Positions 1-11,746 of a DNA stretch of 50,586 bases are shown here, piece by piece. The position numbers and the translations under genes are program-made. This DNA comes from a virus. Position 1 is the first letter of the stretch. Each line of letters starts with the position of its first letter. Below the pieces are notes generated by a model, which saw only the letters and a program-made list of their open reading frames with translations, had not been told where the DNA came from and searched no databases. The DNA lies in the IMG/VR virus record IMGVR_UViG_3300009159_000094, positions 1-50,586 of that record. One strand, written 5' to 3'.

Positions 1-1889
1 ATGCCGAAGGCACAGAAGGTATGTCTGCATCCAAGATGCGTGAACATGCTAAAAATAACAACCTAAAAGAATTTAAAAAAGGTATTCCACCCCATGTAAA
101 GTCGGAACATGCTAAAGAATTGTACAATGATGTACGTAAGGGAATGAATGTCAAAGAAGATTTTGATTCTATTGTTTCCACTATTTTAAGCGAAGGTGTG
201 CATGATAAAGGCATCTTTAAAGCAGTTTTCTTATCTGGTGGACCCGGTTCAGGTAAAGATTATATCCTCGACAACACATTAGCTGGTCATGGACTGGTAG
301 AAATAAATTCAGACAAAGCACTAGAGTTCTTAATGGATAAGAATAATCTGGATAAAAAAATGCCAGAGTCTGAAAAAGAAGTTCGAACTATAATTCGCGG
401 TAAAGCAAAAGATATGACTGAACTGAAACAACACTTAGCATTATTGGGTCGAAATGGCCTTATTATTAATGGTACTGGTGATGATCCAGCTAAGTATGCA
501 AAAATTAAAAAGAATTTAGAATCTATTGGCTATGAAACTATGATGGTTTCGGTCAATACTAAAGATGAAGTTTCTTCACAAAGAAATATTGACCGTGGCA
601 AACGTGGTGGTCGTACAGTACCTGAAAATATTCGCAAAGAAAAATGGGATGCTGTTAATAATGCTAGACCTGAAATGGCAAAGTTATTTGGTCATAATTT
701 TTTTGAAATCGACAACTCTGAAGATTTACGTTCAGCGAAGCCAGAGGTTATCAAAGCTAAAAAAAATGAAATGTTGAACATTTTCAAGAAAGTTCAAGAA
801 TTTGTTAAAACAGCACCTAAGAACAATGAAGCTAAACAATGGGTTGCTGGCGAATTGAGTAAGAAAGATACATTACCAATCGATAAGAAAGGTGCAGAGT
901 ATTCTGGTCCTGCACCCGATGATGCTGCTCAAGCTGAAGCATCTAAACTTGGACTACAGTATTATGGTTTTGGTCGTTACGGTAAAAATGGTAAAGTTAC
1001 TCATCATTCTGTACATGGTAAACTGGTACAAGACCCAACACATGCACAACAACAGAAAGTTGCCGCTAAAGCTGCCAAAGTTGAACCTAATTTGAGTAGT
1101 GGTTCACCAATGGCTAAGAAAGTTTCTGAGAGCATCGATGAAGACTTTGAAAAACTTATTAATGAGGTAACTGATAAGGCTATTCATAATGGAAATTATG
1201 ATGGTCCAAAAACTGCAAAAGGTCCTGAAGGACATACATATACTGCAACGGCTGGAAAGCCAAGAGTTTATGTGATACGTAATTCGGCAGCAAAGGACGC
1301 ACACCGTATGAATGGTGAAATTGTTAAGACCGAAAAAGGTTACATGGTTAAATTAAAGGAGAATGAACATGTTGAAATTTATAAAGAGCTTTCTGAACAA
1401 AAGACAATCAGTATCAGCACCAGTGGAGACACCGGAACCAATCAAAACACCGGAGCCAGTGTTGGTGGTGGCGCCACCAGTGGAGATACCTACACCTGCA
1501 CCAGAGCCAGTGGTAGAAACACCATCAGTGAAGACACCGGATGCGAATGTGCCGCCTGTCAAGCAACCAGCAGCCGCTATGACACCAGCCCCAAAGAAAA
1601 AAAGAAACTCTACCTCTCGCAAGCCAAAGACAAGCTCGCCAAAAAAGTAAAAGAGTCTATCGACCAAGGTATTGAAACTGGAATGTCCATGGCAGCTGGA
1701 GGTGAATCTGGCAGTCGTGATATGGGCGAAAAAATAAATAAAAAAGGTAAAGCCACACCTCTTACTAAAGATTCATTGAAAGAAATGGGTGGAGATGAAA
1801 CTACCGCATCTATTGGTGACCAAAAAGAAGATGAGTTGAAGAAACAAGGTATTAGTTTAATTTCATTTAAAAAGAGAAACTACACATGA
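1..1889 (+). CDS. Modular phage protein with P-loop (zeta/kinase-like) domain, 5' partial
   Basis: The frame is open from the first base of the window, so the gene starts upstream; the first ATG inside is at 21. Counting from that ATG, a Walker A motif GGPGSGKD lies at residues 73-80, after a hydrophobic strand, as in zeta-toxin or polynucleotide-kinase-like P-loop proteins. Linker-like acidic segments (VKEDFDS near 44, VSESIDEDFEK near 370, VKESIDQG near 545) separate the parts, as in the two large proteins downstream. Residues about 450-535 read as a Thr/Ser/Gly/Cys-rich stretch that looks out of character; here another frame encodes a Pro-rich protein at 1369-1650. The substrate is unknown. 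The stop overlaps the next ATG (ATGA). Confidence 0.75.
   Translation, partial: AEGTEGMSASKMREHAKNNNLKEFKKGIPPHVKSEHAKELYNDVRKGMNVKEDFDSIVSTILSEGVHDKGIFKAVFLSGGPGSGKDYILDNTLAGHGLVEINSDKALEFLMDKNNLDKKMPESEKEVRTIIRGKAKDMTELKQHLALLGRNGLIINGTGDDPAKYAKIKKNLESIGYETMMVSVNTKDEVSSQRNIDRGKRGGRTVPENIRKEKWDAVNNARPEMAKLFGHNFFEIDNSEDLRSAKPEVIKAKKNEMLNIFKKVQEFVKTAPKNNEAKQWVAGELSKKDTLPIDKKGAEYSGPAPDDAAQAEASKLGLQYYGFGRYGKNGKVTHHSVHGKLVQDPTHAQQQKVAAKAAKVEPNLSSGSPMAKKVSESIDEDFEKLINEVTDKAIHNGNYDGPKTAKGPEGHTYTATAGKPRVYVIRNSAAKDAHRMNGEIVKTEKGYMVKLKENEHVEIYKELSEQKTISISTSGDTGTNQNTGASVGGGATSGDTYTCTRASGRNTISEDTGCECAACQATSSRYDTSPKEKKKLYLSQAKDKLAKKVKESIDQGIETGMSMAAGGESGSRDMGEKINKKGKATPLTKDSLKEMGGDETTASIGDQKEDELKKQGISLISFKKRNYT
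1369..1650 (+). CDS. Overprinted Pro-rich small protein nested in another frame
   Basis: This 93-residue frame lies inside the large P-loop gene in the +1 frame. It has its own strong ribosome binding site (AAGGAG at 1356-1361, 7 nt before the ATG at 1369). The start MLKFIKSFLNK is typical of small phage proteins. The rest is a regular repeat of P-E-T-P and T-P-E-P units with a Lys-rich tail. The regular repeat shows that this frame, not the enclosing one, shaped the sequence. Function is unknown; the composition resembles an extended periplasm-spanning or linker peptide. It could instead be a non-expressed consequence of a repeat, but the ribosome site argues for expression. Confidence 0.55.
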   Translation: MLKFIKSFLNKRQSVSAPVETPEPIKTPEPVLVVAPPVEIPTPAPEPVVETPSVKTPDANVPPVKQPAAAMTPAPKKKRNSTSRKPKTSSPKK

Positions 1890-2182
1890 AATCATTCATT
1901 TCTTTTATTACTGAAGGTTCTCCTGCTTGGCAACGCAAAGAAGGTAAAAATCCTGAAGGTGGATTAAACCGTAAAGGTATTGCTTCTTATCGTTCCGAAC
2001 ATCCAGGGTCTAAACTCTCAATGGCTGTTACAACTAAGCCCTCAGAATTAAAACCTGGTTCTAAAGCAGCCAATCGCCGTAAATCATTTTGTGCTAGAAT
2101 GAGTGGTGTTGATGGACCAATGAAGAAACCAAACGGCGAACCAACTCGTAAAGCCTTAGCCCTTAAAAAATGGAATTGCTAA
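1886..2182 (+). CDS. Conserved small phage protein (DUF6321-like)
   Basis: A basic 98-residue protein. It contains the pattern SPAWQRKEGKNPEGGLN followed by RKSFCARMSG and a C-terminal RKALALKKWNC, a signature I recall from a family common in environmental phages (DUF6321-like). The many Lys/Arg, Gly and Pro residues suggest nucleic acid contact or a virion-internal role, but no function is known to me. The start overlaps the upstream stop by ATGA, so the two are translationally coupled and lie in the same run as the modular proteins. Confidence 0.7.
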   Translation: MKSFISFITEGSPAWQRKEGKNPEGGLNRKGIASYRSEHPGSKLSMAVTTKPSELKPGSKAANRRKSFCARMSGVDGPMKKPNGEPTRKALALKKWNC

Positions 2183-2207: not shown

Positions 2208-3401
2208 ATGTTTCAAGACAAGTCATTACTCGCAGTAACCGAAGCGGTTAAGAAAATTTGGGCAGAAGCCTTAACAGATAAGCAAAAAAAGATTGATAAA
2301 AACCACAATAATAAAATTGATGGTCAAGACTTGGCTATTTTGCGTAAAGAAGAAACTAAAAAACCAGTTAGTCCATTCGATTGGAAAAATACACCAAAAC
2401 AAACTGGTGAAAAAGGTGAGTTATCTGGTCATACATCTAAAAAGATTTCTACAGGTACCGTATACACCAAAAAATATGTAAAAGAAGATGATACCGGATA
2501 TCAAGACCGGTTTGCTGTTAAAGATGGCAAAGCAGTTAAAAATAATCCAGAAAGAGGTGAGAGAGATCAGGCGCATCATGTTTGGGCTGATAGTGAAGAA
2601 CATGCGGTACGTAAACATGCTAAAATGAATAAAGTTAAGTTGAATGTTGAATCGAGTCCAGCAAAAGAAGGTCAAATCGCAGCCGGAGGTGGAACCCCAG
2701 CCGAACAAGGTGCAATGGCAGCCAAGTATGAAAAGAAAAAAGAAGTGAAAGAAGAAGCATCACAAGCTGAATTCACTGCTGAATTGAAAAAAGCTCAAGC
2801 TAAGTCTCAAGGCAAAGAAAAAGCTGATGTTGCTAAACCTGCTGTTCAAGCTGTGCAAAACGAACAGACACATACGCAAGTAGAAGTATTTGACTTGAAT
2901 GACGCTAATGGTGTTAAGCGTTCAGTTATTGATTTGGAAGAAGCTAAATCTGGTTACGATTTGTATCACTCTATGTATTCTGGTGCAGTTCAACATGGAT
3001 TAGCTCATCACGAAAAAAGTGGTTTGACAGTTGATCCTGATGACTATCATGATAAAGTAACGGTTGGTCCAAAAAAACCTTCAGAAGGTAAAACTGTTAG
3101 TCACAATATTAAAGCAACAAATGCTAAAGGTGAATCACATATGATTCATATGCAAGTCCACAATAAAGGTGGAAATAAACCTTACGAATTGAATACTTAT
3201 TCTAGCAAAGTTCCAAAAAAACAAGTTAAAGAAGAATTTGAACAAATTGATGAAAACCACATGACTGAGCCAGAAATGGAAAAACGTGAAAAAATTGTTA
3301 AATCTATGAAAAAAGGTTTAGCTGGTTTCAAAGAGCGTTATGGTAAAGATGCTAAGTCTGTGATGTACGCTACTGCAACAAAACAGGCGATGAAAGATTG
3401 A
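2208..3401 (+). CDS. Modular phage protein with EF-hand-like loop and cleavable-type linker
   Basis: A hydrophilic 397-residue protein. Residues 30-41 form a calcium-loop pattern (D30, N32, N34, D38, D41) like an EF-hand or dockerin loop, within a segment often seen at the N-terminus of environmental-phage modular proteins. Residues 340-349 are VKEEFEQIDE, the linker motif shared with the neighbouring large gene. The C-terminal about 45 residues (REKIVKSMKKGLAGFKERYG, then VMYATATKQAMK) form a small module recurrent in such proteins. A good ribosome site (AAGG) precedes the ATG. The architecture suggests several small domains strung on linkers, perhaps packaged or cleaved; the role is inferred only. 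Confidence 0.7.
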   Translation: MFQDKSLLAVTEAVKKIWAEALTDKQKKIDKNHNNKIDGQDLAILRKEETKKPVSPFDWKNTPKQTGEKGELSGHTSKKISTGTVYTKKYVKEDDTGYQDRFAVKDGKAVKNNPERGERDQAHHVWADSEEHAVRKHAKMNKVKLNVESSPAKEGQIAAGGGTPAEQGAMAAKYEKKKEVKEEASQAEFTAELKKAQAKSQGKEKADVAKPAVQAVQNEQTHTQVEVFDLNDANGVKRSVIDLEEAKSGYDLYHSMYSGAVQHGLAHHEKSGLTVDPDDYHDKVTVGPKKPSEGKTVSHNIKATNAKGESHMIHMQVHNKGGNKPYELNTYSSKVPKKQVKEEFEQIDENHMTEPEMEKREKIVKSMKKGLAGFKERYGKDAKSVMYATATKQAMKD

Positions 3402-3402
3402 A

Positions 3403-5880
3403 ATGAAAAGGTTTTCTGATTTTTTAGAGGGGAGATGTTGGCCTGGTTACAAACCAAAACCAGGTAAAACTCCTTATTCTCCTGGTTCTTGTGAAAAGAA
3501 AAATGAAGATGTAAATGAATCTTCTGCGGCCGCAATTGCGGCTGCCACTGCAATCGCAAAAAAGAAATCTGGGAATTATGACAAAGAAGGATTTAGAAAA
3601 ACACCTTATAAGAATCCGGATAGTCCAAATAGAAAATCTAATGATGAAAGAAGAGCTGAACTCAAAGAAGATTTGCGTAAATGGTTCAGTAAAACTGATC
3701 CAACGGGTGATTGGAAAAGAATTAACAGTAAAGGTGAAGCAATTGGTCCTTGTGCAAGAGAACCTGGTGAACCTAAACCTAAATGTATGTCAAAATCACA
3801 AAGAGCATCTTTAAGTAAAAAAGAAAAAGCATCTGCTGTAAGAAGAAAAAGACAACAAGATCCAAATGCCGAAAGACAAGGTGCACCAATAAATGTCAAA
3901 AATAAGGTAAATGAAAATATGGAACAAATAAACGAAAAAAATAAACCTACTAATCCAGAATTGTGGTCGAGAGCTATTGCTCAAGCAAAATCTAAGTTTG
4001 ATGTTTATCCTTCTGCCTATGCAAATGGTTGGGCATCAAAGTGGTATAAATCAAAAGGTGGTGGTTGGGAAAGTGTTTCGGAGTCCGCTGAAGTAAATAA
4101 AACCGGTATAAAAAAATTCAAAGAACTAGCTGCCCTTTTCCGAGAAGATATTTCTCTTGATGAAGTAATGTTCAAAAAAAGTCCTTATGGTAAAACTGCA
4201 GCAAGTCAACAACGTGCTAAAGATTTGTTAAATCCACCAAAAGAATCTTCTGAAACTAAAGCTGATGAAAAGAAAGAAGTCAAAGAAGATTTTGAGCAAC
4301 TTGACGAAATGCCAGGTGCTAACATGGATACACGGGCTGTACATTCTCACCTAAAGAAAAAAGGTTGGTCTTTAAGTCGTACTTCTGGTGGGCATGATGT
4401 ATTCACACATCCTAATGCAGTTCATCATATTCCAGTTCCTCGTCATCGTCAGTTAAAAGCACCTTTGATTAAAGGTATTTTAAAATCCTCTCAGATTAGT
4501 GAAGAAACTAAAGATGTTGGTGAATATGACTATGAAGGTCAAATGGCTCGCACACAATTACAAACAACCTTGCGTAATTGTGAAGATTTAATTGGAATGA
4601 TTAATGATAATGATAATATGCCGGAGTGGGTACAATCTAAGATAACCTTAGCCCAAGACTATATTACAACTGTTAGAGATTATCTACAATCAAAAGAGGA
4701 ACTCGGTGAAGAAGTTGAGCAGTTGGAAGAAGAGAAGCAAAAACATACTCATGTTACAATACAAGATATGGAGTTTTCTGGACATAATATTGTTAAAAAA
4801 GGTTCACACATGAGATATGTGGAAGGATCAAAACAAATGTATGTTCATTTAAAAAATGGTAAACCTGTCGAAAAAACATATCCAATTTTAAGCATACCTC
4901 ATCATCTAGTTAAAAGTATAAATGAAGAAGTTGAGCAGATTGATGAGTTGTCTAAGAAAACTCTTGGCTCATATGTCAATAAAGCAATGGACAGCGCAAG
5001 AGAATTGCCTGGTTCTGGCACGAATGCTGAAGCCAGCAAAAAGTCAAAACGTTTCGCTTCTGTTTCTGCGGCTGCATATCGCACACAAGGTCTTGCGCCA
5101 AGAAAAGGCACTGATATGTTTAAAAAGTACAAAGCTGAAAGTGTTGTGACAGAAGCTGTGACATATGAGCCTAGTCCGGGTGCTCGTCCAAATAACGCTG
5201 GACATACGCTTGTTGGTTTCTCATTTCATTCAGATAATACTAAACATGCTAACATTATGAAGCATGGTGAGACTGGTAAGTATTATGCTGCAGGCGGCAG
5301 TTCTTCACATCCCGTTAAAAGTACCACATTTCACGATACACCCGAAGATGCTGTTAAAAGCAAAAAGTCTTATGTCAAAGAATCATTTAGACCTATGGAT
5401 GAACCAAACTACAATAATTCTATTCAAGCTCGTCAAAAGAAAGCTGATGATGCCAACAAGCCACCATTTGATGGTCCTTACAAGAAGGTTAAAGGTGATG
5501 TAAAAGATAAATCTGGTGCTGTACACACAGCACAATCAATGGCAAAAGATGCAGCTTATAGAGGTATGCAAATGGCCGTGAAGAAAAAAGGTATCAAAGA
5601 ATCGAAACAAGATTCTATTGTTCGTGATGCAGTTAAAACTGACCACACCACTGCTATGAAAATTGCTAAGTCAGCCGCACGTAGACAGGCAGGAATCAAA
5701 GAAGACATGGAAGCAGACAACTCGCTTGGTAAGAATGATACTCTTGCTAAACAAAGCCTTAGCAGAACTGCTGGCATTACAAAAGACCTTGCGCTTACTG
5801 GCAAGAACAAGGAAAATGTGAAGAATAAGGAAAAGTTCGAACCGGAACCAGAATTATCCTCACAAATCGTTAAATCTTAA
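3403..5880 (+). CDS. Large modular polyprotein with embedded HicA-like domain
   Basis: An 825-residue hydrophilic protein. In order: an N-terminal CWPGYKPKPGKT segment; a DWKRINSKGEAIGPCARE module (about 90-165); a YPSAYANGWASKWYK module (about 180-222); a HicA-like module (308-365) with KKKGW, RTSGGHDVF (candidate catalytic His331) and IPVPRHRQLK; a TQLQTTLRNCEDLI helical module (about 372-431); and a SKKTLGSYVNKA module (about 517-580). Modules are separated by linkers NMEQINE (172), VKEDFEQLDE (293), EEVEQLEE (436), EEVEQIDE (508), VKESFRPMDE (658) and IKEDME (765). The linkers resemble the L/I-X-E recognition rule of the T4 prohead protease, so processing into separate peptides is plausible. 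It starts one base after the upstream stop. Confidence 0.7.
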   Translation: MKRFSDFLEGRCWPGYKPKPGKTPYSPGSCEKKNEDVNESSAAAIAAATAIAKKKSGNYDKEGFRKTPYKNPDSPNRKSNDERRAELKEDLRKWFSKTDPTGDWKRINSKGEAIGPCAREPGEPKPKCMSKSQRASLSKKEKASAVRRKRQQDPNAERQGAPINVKNKVNENMEQINEKNKPTNPELWSRAIAQAKSKFDVYPSAYANGWASKWYKSKGGGWESVSESAEVNKTGIKKFKELAALFREDISLDEVMFKKSPYGKTAASQQRAKDLLNPPKESSETKADEKKEVKEDFEQLDEMPGANMDTRAVHSHLKKKGWSLSRTSGGHDVFTHPNAVHHIPVPRHRQLKAPLIKGILKSSQISEETKDVGEYDYEGQMARTQLQTTLRNCEDLIGMINDNDNMPEWVQSKITLAQDYITTVRDYLQSKEELGEEVEQLEEEKQKHTHVTIQDMEFSGHNIVKKGSHMRYVEGSKQMYVHLKNGKPVEKTYPILSIPHHLVKSINEEVEQIDELSKKTLGSYVNKAMDSARELPGSGTNAEASKKSKRFASVSAAAYRTQGLAPRKGTDMFKKYKAESVVTEAVTYEPSPGARPNNAGHTLVGFSFHSDNTKHANIMKHGETGKYYAAGGSSSHPVKSTTFHDTPEDAVKSKKSYVKESFRPMDEPNYNNSIQARQKKADDANKPPFDGPYKKVKGDVKDKSGAVHTAQSMAKDAAYRGMQMAVKKKGIKESKQDSIVRDAVKTDHTTAMKIAKSAARRQAGIKEDMEADNSLGKNDTLAKQSLSRTAGITKDLALTGKNKENVKNKEKFEPEPELSSQIVKS

Positions 5881-5917: not shown

Positions 5918-6481
5918 ATGTCACTATGGTCCGTTTCAGATTCAAGCAATGCTGCACCTAAATTTGCAGGTGTTGATGTAAGTATTGGTGCCAGTGCAAC
6001 TGGTGCATCACTGTTTGGTAACACACAAATTGCCGCATTCCAGACTAATAAAAATACCACAGTTGGTGTTTTTGGTGTAGGTACAACTGAACAAGGTGTA
6101 TCCGCTTCATCAAATATACATCCACAACATGCTGGTTGGGTTCTGGTTAAAAGTGGCACGGGCCCAGTTGTTAGCATTACAGCTAACGCTTCGGCAGTTG
6201 CAACTAATACTTACTTGACTTTCACAGGCACAACAGGTTCTACTACTGCCAACGCAACTGTGACAGTTAATACTGCTGGTTATATCCAATCAGTTACTGT
6301 TAACTCTGGTGGTAACTACTTGAGAGCACCTGCTATTACTCAAGTTGGTAACGCTAACTTCACAATCACCATGGGTGGTCGTGCTGGTCGTGTACAAACA
6401 GAAACTCTTGTTGCTATGTCGTCCATTGGCACACAAGGTGTTGCTGATGCAAGCGATAATGCTACTTTCCCAAATAGCTAA
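5918..6481 (+). CDS. Putative virion structural protein, beta-rich
   Basis: A 187-residue protein rich in Gly, Ala, Thr, Ser, Val and Asn and poor in charge, with alternating hydrophobic and small residues (for example VSITANASAV and TVTVNTAGYIQSVTVNSGG). This composition is typical of beta-sandwich virion proteins. The start MSLWSVSDSSNAAPKF resembles decoration-type proteins of environmental myoviruses. A strong AAGGAG precedes the ATG, as expected for high expression, and a possible late promoter lies upstream. The exact virion role (head decoration or fibre-associated) cannot be decided from sequence. Confidence 0.6.
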   Translation: MSLWSVSDSSNAAPKFAGVDVSIGASATGASLFGNTQIAAFQTNKNTTVGVFGVGTTEQGVSASSNIHPQHAGWVLVKSGTGPVVSITANASAVATNTYLTFTGTTGSTTANATVTVNTAGYIQSVTVNSGGNYLRAPAITQVGNANFTITMGGRAGRVQTETLVAMSSIGTQGVADASDNATFPNS

Positions 6482-6867
6482 TGATTGATTTTAAATTATT
6501 CTTGAGTGAAGAATTGGAAGACTCTGAAGTTAATTTGGTGTCTTCCTACAACAGTCAAGAACTAAATGATAGTTTGTTCAGAGATTTGAGTAGTCCTTTT
6601 CTTTCTGTACAAGCTGGATTTTCTTACTTAAGAAAAACTTTATTTTCTTATGGTATAGATATTCCACCTGTGTTTGATTTGGATCCAGAAGGTGACGAAA
6701 TGTTGTTGGATGTTTCCGGGTATGGTGCAGAGCAGTCATCAATATTGTATGTTTTATATTCTCTAACCGATGATGGTTATTATGATTTCTATGCTGAACT
6801 CACTGATGAGTCTGGTGCGGATGAATTGCTGAAATCTGGTACAGAGGAGCAAGAAGAAGAAGTTTAA
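6481..6867 (+). CDS. Acidic conserved phage protein of unknown function
   Basis: A 128-residue acidic protein, with a Glu/Asp-rich N-terminus and a tail ending in EEQEEEV. No transmembrane segment or catalytic motif is visible. The ATG overlaps the previous stop (TAATG) and its stop overlaps the next ATG, so it is translated as part of the virion-protein transcript. Its acidic charge and small size would suit a chaperone or assembly factor, but that is a guess. Confidence 0.6.
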   Translation: MIDFKLFLSEELEDSEVNLVSSYNSQELNDSLFRDLSSPFLSVQAGFSYLRKTLFSYGIDIPPVFDLDPEGDEMLLDVSGYGAEQSSILYVLYSLTDDGYYDFYAELTDESGADELLKSGTEEQEEEV

Positions 6868-7259
6868 TGTCCTTTGATGATTTGACCAGTGAAAATATTT
6901 TAATTTATGCAATGAAGGCTTATGATAGACCAGATTGCATAATGAGTGAATTTAAAGAGGACATGAAACGGTTTAATTACTTAAAAAGATTATTCCGTAA
7001 ATATCGTAAGTTGGGTGAGATTAAAGATCGGTTGGTCATAAATCACTTAGTTGTTCTGTATAATGTTTTTGGTGTTGAAGTTGCAACTCGTTTGCTTTTT
7101 TATAAAGTATCAGAAGAAGATCATATCACATTAAAAACTTACCTTATATTCTTGAATTATATGCCAAGTGTTATACCAAAAATTAATGGAAAAGATATAT
7201 TATCTTCCGATATTGCTGTCGATATGAATATAGCTGAAGTATTAAGGCAAATTAAATGA
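6867..7259 (+). CDS. Conserved T4-superfamily phage protein (DUF7207-like)
   Basis: A 130-residue protein, basic and helical, with the stretch ENILIYAMKAYDRPDC followed by FNYLKRLFRKY and LVVLYNVFGVEVATRLLFYK. I recognise this pattern from a family widespread in cyanophage- and pelagiphage-type myoviruses (DUF7207-like), where it usually lies near structural genes. Function is unknown. It is coupled by overlap to both neighbours. Confidence 0.65.
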   Translation: MSFDDLTSENILIYAMKAYDRPDCIMSEFKEDMKRFNYLKRLFRKYRKLGEIKDRLVINHLVVLYNVFGVEVATRLLFYKVSEEDHITLKTYLIFLNYMPSVIPKINGKDILSSDIAVDMNIAEVLRQIK

Positions 7260-10709: not shown

Positions 10710-10717
10710 GATTGAAT

Positions 10718-11746
10718 ATGTCACTTCCTACAGACCTCAAATTCACACTTCTAATCTCGCCTAGATTCGAAAAGTTTCAGCGCAAGTCTGATTACCTCTT
10801 CAATGTGAGATGCCCCATCTGCGGAGACTCGCAGAAAAATAAAAATAAGATGCGTGGTTACATTTACCGCAAAGGTAATGACCTATTTTATCGCTGTCAC
10901 AATTGTGGCGCAGGAATGGGTATCGGTAATCTTCTCAAACACATGGATGGTTCTTTATACAGAGAATACATACTTGAGCGTTATAAAACTGGTGAAATCA
11001 ACACCAGCAATACAAAAACCCAACTGTTTGACATACCATCCCCCCGTTTCGGCAAAGTTGATATACCAACCTATGATAATGCTGAACGATGTGATAAACT
11101 ACCTGATGCACACTTCTGTAAAAAATACCTACGAAATCGCCAAATACCTGAGTGGGCATTTGAAAAACTATATTTCACGGCTAACTTCAAAAAGTTTTGT
11201 GATGAGGTCAATCCCACCCATGAAAAAGAAATCTCTCCTGATCCTAGGCTAATCATTCCATTCTATGATGAATACAATGCACTAATTGGTGTATCAGGTC
11301 GAGCATTGGTTGTAGCCGATTATAAGTTGCGTTATATCAAAATAAAAGCAAATGATAATGTGAAGAGGCTAATCTATGGAATGGATCGCATAGATAGTAC
11401 TCAAGCTGTGAAAATCGTTGAAGGTGAGATTGATTCATTGTTTCTAAGCAACGCTATTGCATCAGGAGATTCTAGTCTTATACTAACTGCTAATGCTATC
11501 ACAGCAAAAGAAAAAATATTAATTTTTGACAATGAACCTAGAAATAAAGAAATTGTCAAATTGATGAGTAATGCTATCCTAGATGGTCGTAACATTGTTA
11601 TTTGGCCTAATACGGTAGAAGGTAAGGATATTAATGAGATGGTAATGAACGGCTTTTCATGTGACGAAATTGAAAGTATTATAAGTAATAACACATTCAA
11701 AGGTCTTGCGGCTCAGACGAACTTTATTTTTTGGAAAAAAGTATAA
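10718..11746 (+). CDS. DNA primase, T4 gp61-like
   Basis: A 342-residue primase, the length of T4 gp61. The N-terminal zinc finger has CPIC (Cys32, Cys35) and CHNC (Cys60, Cys63). The TOPRIM core has IVEGEID (Glu235, Glu237), a second acidic motif IFDNEP (Asp271) and KDINEMV (Asp304). It would make RNA primers for lagging-strand synthesis with a phage helicase not in this window. A TTG at 10712 is an alternative start. A promoter overlaps the start, predicting a near-leaderless mRNA. Confidence 0.92.
   Translation: MSLPTDLKFTLLISPRFEKFQRKSDYLFNVRCPICGDSQKNKNKMRGYIYRKGNDLFYRCHNCGAGMGIGNLLKHMDGSLYREYILERYKTGEINTSNTKTQLFDIPSPRFGKVDIPTYDNAERCDKLPDAHFCKKYLRNRQIPEWAFEKLYFTANFKKFCDEVNPTHEKEISPDPRLIIPFYDEYNALIGVSGRALVVADYKLRYIKIKANDNVKRLIYGMDRIDSTQAVKIVEGEIDSLFLSNAIASGDSSLILTANAITAKEKILIFDNEPRNKEIVKLMSNAILDGRNIVIWPNTVEGKDINEMVMNGFSCDEIESIISNNTFKGLAAQTNFIFWKKV

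Follow-up and report, generated by a model that had tools for sequence, protein, structure and literature searches.

The window, by which we mean the whole stretch of DNA analyzed here, is a linear virus record of 50.6 kb (IMG/VR record IMGVR_UViG_3300009159_000094, 50,586 nucleotides) with 83 ORFs. The ORF at 3403-5880, whose coordinates as given in an earlier sequence-only reading of this DNA were reproduced by the ORF call, encodes a predicted modular virion polyprotein of 825 amino acids. The window is collinear with a 162-kb contig, G001, at 85-99% nucleotide identity; around the HicA module the identity is 97%, and the HicA domains of both are 99% identical. HicA was the only enzyme-type domain recognized in the polyprotein, and a peptidase domain was not found in it. 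The features of the locus are listed below, where CTS stands for capsid-targeting sequence and an arrow marks a predicted cut.

21..1889, + strand: neighboring cargo gene, its start cut by the window edge (Pfam; full-length G001 copy; S-CREM2 gp154)
1886..2182, + strand: DUF6321 protein with the CTS MKSFISFITE↓G joined directly to it (Pfam; CTS pattern)
2208..3401, + strand: second modular cargo protein, the G001 homologue of which has an EVEQIDE linker (ORF call; G001 comparison)
3403..5880, + strand: predicted 825-aa modular virion polyprotein (ORF call; collinear with G001)
3403..3429, + strand: T4-like CTS propeptide MKRFSDFLE, predicted cut after FLE (FLE↓G) (N-terminal pattern; T4 CTS rules)
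3670..3936, + strand: basic module, residues 90-178, common to many cyanophage proteins (tblastn; phrog_727, phrog_3477)
4288..4308, + strand: acidic linker DFEQLDE before the HicA cassette, predicted prohead-protease site LDE↓M (P1/P3 conservation)
4309..4503, + strand: HicA cassette, residues 303-367 (Pfam; PDB profile; AlphaFold and Foldseek; dN/dS; charge)
4393..4395, + strand: codon of His331, the catalytic-position His (invariant in the alignment; aligned with the His of B. pseudomallei HicA)
4525..4710, + strand: acidic module YDYEGQMARTQLQ..., residues 375-436, near HicA in many relatives (relatives' sequences)
4711..4731, + strand: acidic linker EVEQLEE, predicted protease site (window/G001 module-swap junction)
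4732..4926, + strand: module EKQKHTHVTIQDMEF..., swapped for an unrelated module in G001 (alignment with G001)
4927..4947, + strand: acidic linker EVEQIDE, predicted protease site (motif restricted to 3 of 203 G001 ORFs)
4948..5157, + strand: module LSKKTLGSYVNKAMDSAREL..., common to relatives (comparison of relatives, including G001)
6481..6867, + strand: further CTS-bearing protein, MIDFKLFLSE↓E (CTS pattern)

With the polyprotein as tblastn query 347 phage records were matched, mostly through query residues 87-235. The domain that concerns us here is a genuine HicA domain, well beyond chance. The sequence-only reading had noticed a HicA pattern in residues 308-365 (MDTRAVHSHLKKKGWSLSRTSGGHDVFTHPNAVHHIPVPRHRQLKAPLIKGILKSSQI) and had proposed a profile search and a structure prediction as checks; both confirmed it. 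Pfam HicA_toxin (PF07927) matched residues 313-364 at 2e-9 (37.8 bits, above the curated cut-off of 27), the isolated HicA region at 1e-10 and all 38 of 38 aligned HicA-module proteins. A profile built from 18 relatives led to the solved HicAs 4c26, 6g26 and 1whz at 6e-5 to 2e-3. The AlphaFold model (pLDDT 77) adopted an alpha-beta-beta-beta-alpha, dsRBD-like fold. Its top seven Foldseek matches in the PDB were HicA structures (6g26, 4c26, 4p78, 5yrz, 6hpb) and the HicA homologue 1whz, and superposition on 6g26, 1whz and 5yrz gave an rmsd of 1.1-1.5 Å. The domain resembles the HicA of HicAB systems in sequence profile, fold and the residues equivalent to Gly22 and His24, but differs from it in lying within a polyprotein, in having no HicB and in its family-specific VPRHxQLKAPL loop.

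The absence of a HicB partner nearby, which had also been claimed beforehand, held over a wider range: the window record and the related 162-, 214- and 87-kb records gave no match to either HicB family, PF15919 or PF05534. The window and the three related long records hold one HicA each, and the adjacent or fused HicB of a HicAB toxin-antitoxin system was seen in none of the four. Two scans of viral contigs returned 26 and 61 loci, the first set being mostly contained in the second, with 51 distinct HicA-bearing polyprotein ORFs including that of the window, which fall into 35 clusters. All distinct ORFs examined had the module within a larger protein of 175-1431 aa, and in none was it free-standing. 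When bacterial and archaeal genomes were scanned, no close cellular relative turned up. The 1431-aa polyprotein (L062, 4824-9116) also exhibited a weak match to intein splicing, below the Pfam cut-off, at about residues 873-1027.

The acidic linkers that the first inspection had described on both sides of the HicA domain are indeed present in the sequence. The T4 gp21 prohead protease has a specificity for L/I-x-E (PMC9026906), which is a short and common motif, and the cassette-bounding linkers, (E)EVEQ(L/I)DE, fit it. Among 34 non-redundant proteins, the linker before HicA had Glu at P1 in 34 and Leu or Ile at P3 in 33. In these proteins conservation set in at position -8, exactly at the eight-residue linker with consensus EEVEQLDE: mean pairwise identity was 0.05-0.12 upstream (unrelated sequence) and 0.4-1.0 from the linker on, and conservation faded about 65 residues downstream of the linker. 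Four relatives (L050, L057, L058, L059) carry the cassette between a CTS-like N-terminus and DUF6321; in the structure model of the L058 form, HicA and the C-terminal DUF6321 were confident, and the linkers at the predicted cuts had low confidence.

The polyproteins of the window and G001, with their nearly identical HicA module, differ by the insertion, loss or replacement of modules at linkers (VKE|DFEQLDE, LGEEV| and VVAE|). When the BLAST breakpoints of all modules were considered, 22% fell within 10 aa of an L/I-x-E site versus 19% at random, which is no clear excess. This test is blunt since BLAST extends through similar linkers, and for this reason the cassette-anchored test and the near-identical window/G001 pair were used. 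Across the whole window protein, L/I/F-x-E occurred 14 times versus 7 expected, a modest excess that we do not use as proof. In G001, the linker motif was present in three of 203 ORFs, namely two cargo proteins and one prohead-core protein adjoining gp21. The latter is small and basic, its gene lies between those for the portal and the prohead protease, and its linker reads EEIEILDE↓A.

One might take EEVEQ(L/I)DE for plain linkers or recombination hot spots in a structural head or tail protein that stays whole, in line with the shortness of L/I-x-E and with the negative global breakpoint test. The confinement of the motif to cargo and prohead-core proteins among the 203 ORFs of G001, the invariant Glu at P1 and the CTS with which related cargo proteins begin, however, render this explanation improbable. 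Another explanation concerns two methionines, Met303 (4309-4311), which immediately follows the predicted cut, and Met308 (4324-4326). Both are invariant across the non-redundant relatives, and the second aligns with the region where free HicA starts. Internal translation initiation at either of them could yield a free HicA toxin in the infected cell. Neither ATG, though, is preceded by an evident ribosome-binding site, and variation in the linker is synonymous (pS 0.74, pN 0.26), so that the linker is kept at the protein level. We therefore rejected an internal start as the main route and regard it as highly improbable.

T4 internal proteins carry a short N-terminal CTS that is taken off by gp21 (PMC9026906). 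The window polyprotein begins with MKRFSDFLE, which ends in L/I/F-x-E as does the CTS of T4-type internal proteins. The gp21-type prohead protease (Peptidase_S77) that belongs to such proteins is encoded, together with the gp23 capsid protein, in G001, G002 and G003, the three long records with the HicA module. Both genes are absent from the 50-kb window itself; for this virus we presume them from the close relative G001. The gp23 N-termini in the three long records, YLTE↓A, QLTE↓A and YLSE↓A, are as expected from the L/I-x-E specificity of gp21. By gp23 DNA the closest isolate was Pelagibacter phage Mosig (70%).

The CTS pattern was found in 3 of the 83 window ORFs, all within the first 7 kb, versus 0.07 expected from shuffled N-termini, and in 4 of the 203 ORFs of G001 versus 0.12 expected in the same way. 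In the second subfamily (MPESSM type), most relatives have no obvious T4-like CTS, and neither has gp160 of cyanophage S-CREM2. Since many relatives are without an obvious CTS, targeting may use other signals. In G003 (L039, 3131-4144), a 337-aa CTS-bearing protein near the cargo locus starts with MKTFKSFLAE↓Q.

In its full-length G001 copy (83930-86257; L108, 3930-6257), the first ORF of the window combines the CTS MDFKSFLDE with a cytidylyltransferase and a zeta-toxin-type kinase (Pfam 5e-11). Ten related records also have a large cytidylyltransferase ORF, which lies on the strand of the HicA gene and about 3-7 kb upstream of it. DUF6321, for its part, may be a domain of internal head proteins. 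As a separate observation, the zeta-toxin-type kinase constitutes a second toxin-like domain in the cargo locus that carries HicA.

In S-CREM2, mass spectrometry identified gp154 and gp160 among the virion proteins, with the reservation of its authors that carry-over of abundant non-virion proteins remains possible (PMC10665884). We found gp154 to be a cytidylyltransferase with the N-terminus MKNFSSFLTE↓A that matches the full-length G001 copy of the first window ORF. gp160 aligned with the window polyprotein at 28.6% over 161 aa and, judged from this alignment and its position, is likely its syntenic homologue. gp159 matched window positions 6867-7259 and gp162 positions 10712-11746. S-CREM2 shares with the window the locus order (cytidylyltransferase, modular protein, primase, RNR), one module and, on gp154, a CTS, whereas gp160 differs from the window polyprotein in having neither the HicA module nor a clear CTS.

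Our proposal is that the window gene would encode, for a T4-like phage, an internal head protein built of modules. MKRFSDFLE would take the polyprotein into the prohead core, where a gp21-type prohead protease would cut after Glu at L/I-x-E in the acidic linkers. Cleavage would leave small, mostly basic domains in the head, among them a HicA-sized piece (approximately residues 303-367) of about the size of free HicA. The released pieces would enter the host together with the DNA, and the HicA domain would most likely act at once, without HicB, as an RNase on host or defense-system RNA. The producing cell would be spared, or spared for long enough, if the prohead kept the domain sequestered or if the domain became active only on cleavage. 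Packaging and cleavage of the window polyprotein, as predicted from its sequence, are well supported; cleavage at the L/I-x-E linker sites, and injection, we infer. The full course from capsid packaging over release by the prohead protease and injection with the DNA to a probable RNase action on host or defense RNA appears to us on balance probable, if by a modest degree. The notion in the sequence-only reading that a larger protein delivers the domain or releases it gains support from the CTS at the N-terminus and the L/I-x-E sites at the cassette edges. Capsid targeting combined with prohead-protease sites would be a specific form of delivery that had not been named there, and the sequence features support it.

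What the domain might do after release can be approached from its conserved residues. Residue 331, placed at the catalytic position in the initial reading, is a His and is invariant, as are G329 and the VPRH loop (n = 38 aligned proteins). In the profile alignment, the solved B. pseudomallei HicA has Ala at the position of H331. The toxicity of this HicA depends on Gly22 and His24, and the form used for its structure was the H24A mutant (PMC3969222). By alignment, G329 and H331 are the equivalents of Gly22 and His24. Purifying selection acts on the HicA module (median dN/dS 0.17). Its beta3-alpha2 loop, VPRHxQLKAPL, is unlike that of free HicA, so that there may have been a change in activity, in specificity or in the binding of HicB. 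A retained function is favored because Gly329, His331 and the VPRH loop are conserved. Of the initial proposal of a toxin-type RNase inside a larger protein, the HicA fold thus stands, and the RNase part is suggested by the conserved residues; such an activity and its target are putative.

Alternatively, the module may be packaged and released with its nuclease lost, as a basic, nucleic-acid-binding head filler in the manner of histone-like internal proteins. The cassette is about 7 kDa in size and very basic (pI about 11.6 for residues 303-365), the other predicted fragments are mostly basic too, and a dsRBD-like fold binds nucleic acid. Invariance of Gly329, His331 and VPRH in 38 proteins and strong purifying selection nevertheless exceed what charge alone would need, and we consider a pure filler rather unlikely. 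The injected domain could also be a decoy or competitor directed against host HicB or other toxin-antitoxin or defense components, with no cutting of RNA. The T4 internal proteins with known action are anti-defense factors: IPI* blocks GmrSD (PMC3012670) and IPIII is needed on ECOR17 (PMC9391042). A decoy, however, need not keep the catalytic-position His, which makes this role distinctly improbable. Returning to the injected RNase, its most pronounced form would be an active HicA without antitoxin that serves as a virion effector, has no contact with RNA while in the head, degrades host mRNA early and belongs to a platform whose protease-bounded cassettes pass between phages; we advance this form tentatively, its chances being somewhat short of even.

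With T4 IPI, IPII, IPIII and Alt the window polyprotein shares an N-terminal CTS (L/I/F-x-E), a gp21-type protease (in related contigs), small basic cargo and T4-like head genes. Unlike them, its chain has many modules and several predicted internal sites, with HicA as part of the cargo, and no homology was seen between its mature parts and T4 internal proteins. Polyvalent proteins are similar in being multi-domain, in their modular exchange, in that they are thought to be injected with DNA and in that they can include RNase domains (Iyer et al. 2017, PMC5512222). For those proteins, processing by built-in zincin metallopeptidases was proposed (PMC5512222), whereas the window polyprotein would be processed in trans by the prohead protease. 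The several disparate activities of polyvalent proteins, often with a zincin peptidase, were not found in it, and HicA is unmentioned in the polyvalent-protein paper (PMC5512222).

The survey of Gerdes 2024 distinguishes 14 HicA contexts, and a virion polyprotein is not among them (PMC10865869); a capsid-packaged HicA would be a context outside this published scheme. Our literature search for HicA in virions, covering openly licensed papers, returned nothing relevant. If the proposal is true, a toxin-antitoxin RNase would be employed as an injected virion effector without its antitoxin. The simple rule, a CTS followed by a cassette with L/I-x-E prohead-protease sites at its ends, would split the uncharacterized domains in virion proteins of T4-like aquatic phages into testable units, and a cargo with a predicted activity makes the function of T4-type internal proteins testable.

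In tblastn searches of isolate phages, no virion polyprotein with HicA was found and the HicA module of the window had no match; other variants of the module gave weak matches only, several of them to genes annotated as free HicA. In Cyanophage S-RIM4, a stretch of 37 aa that weakly matches the HicA module overlaps the start and upstream bases of a 64-aa hypothetical gene (L114, 3025-3216). By its sequence this gene may encode a free HicA-like protein; the match lies in a run of small genes after a helicase.
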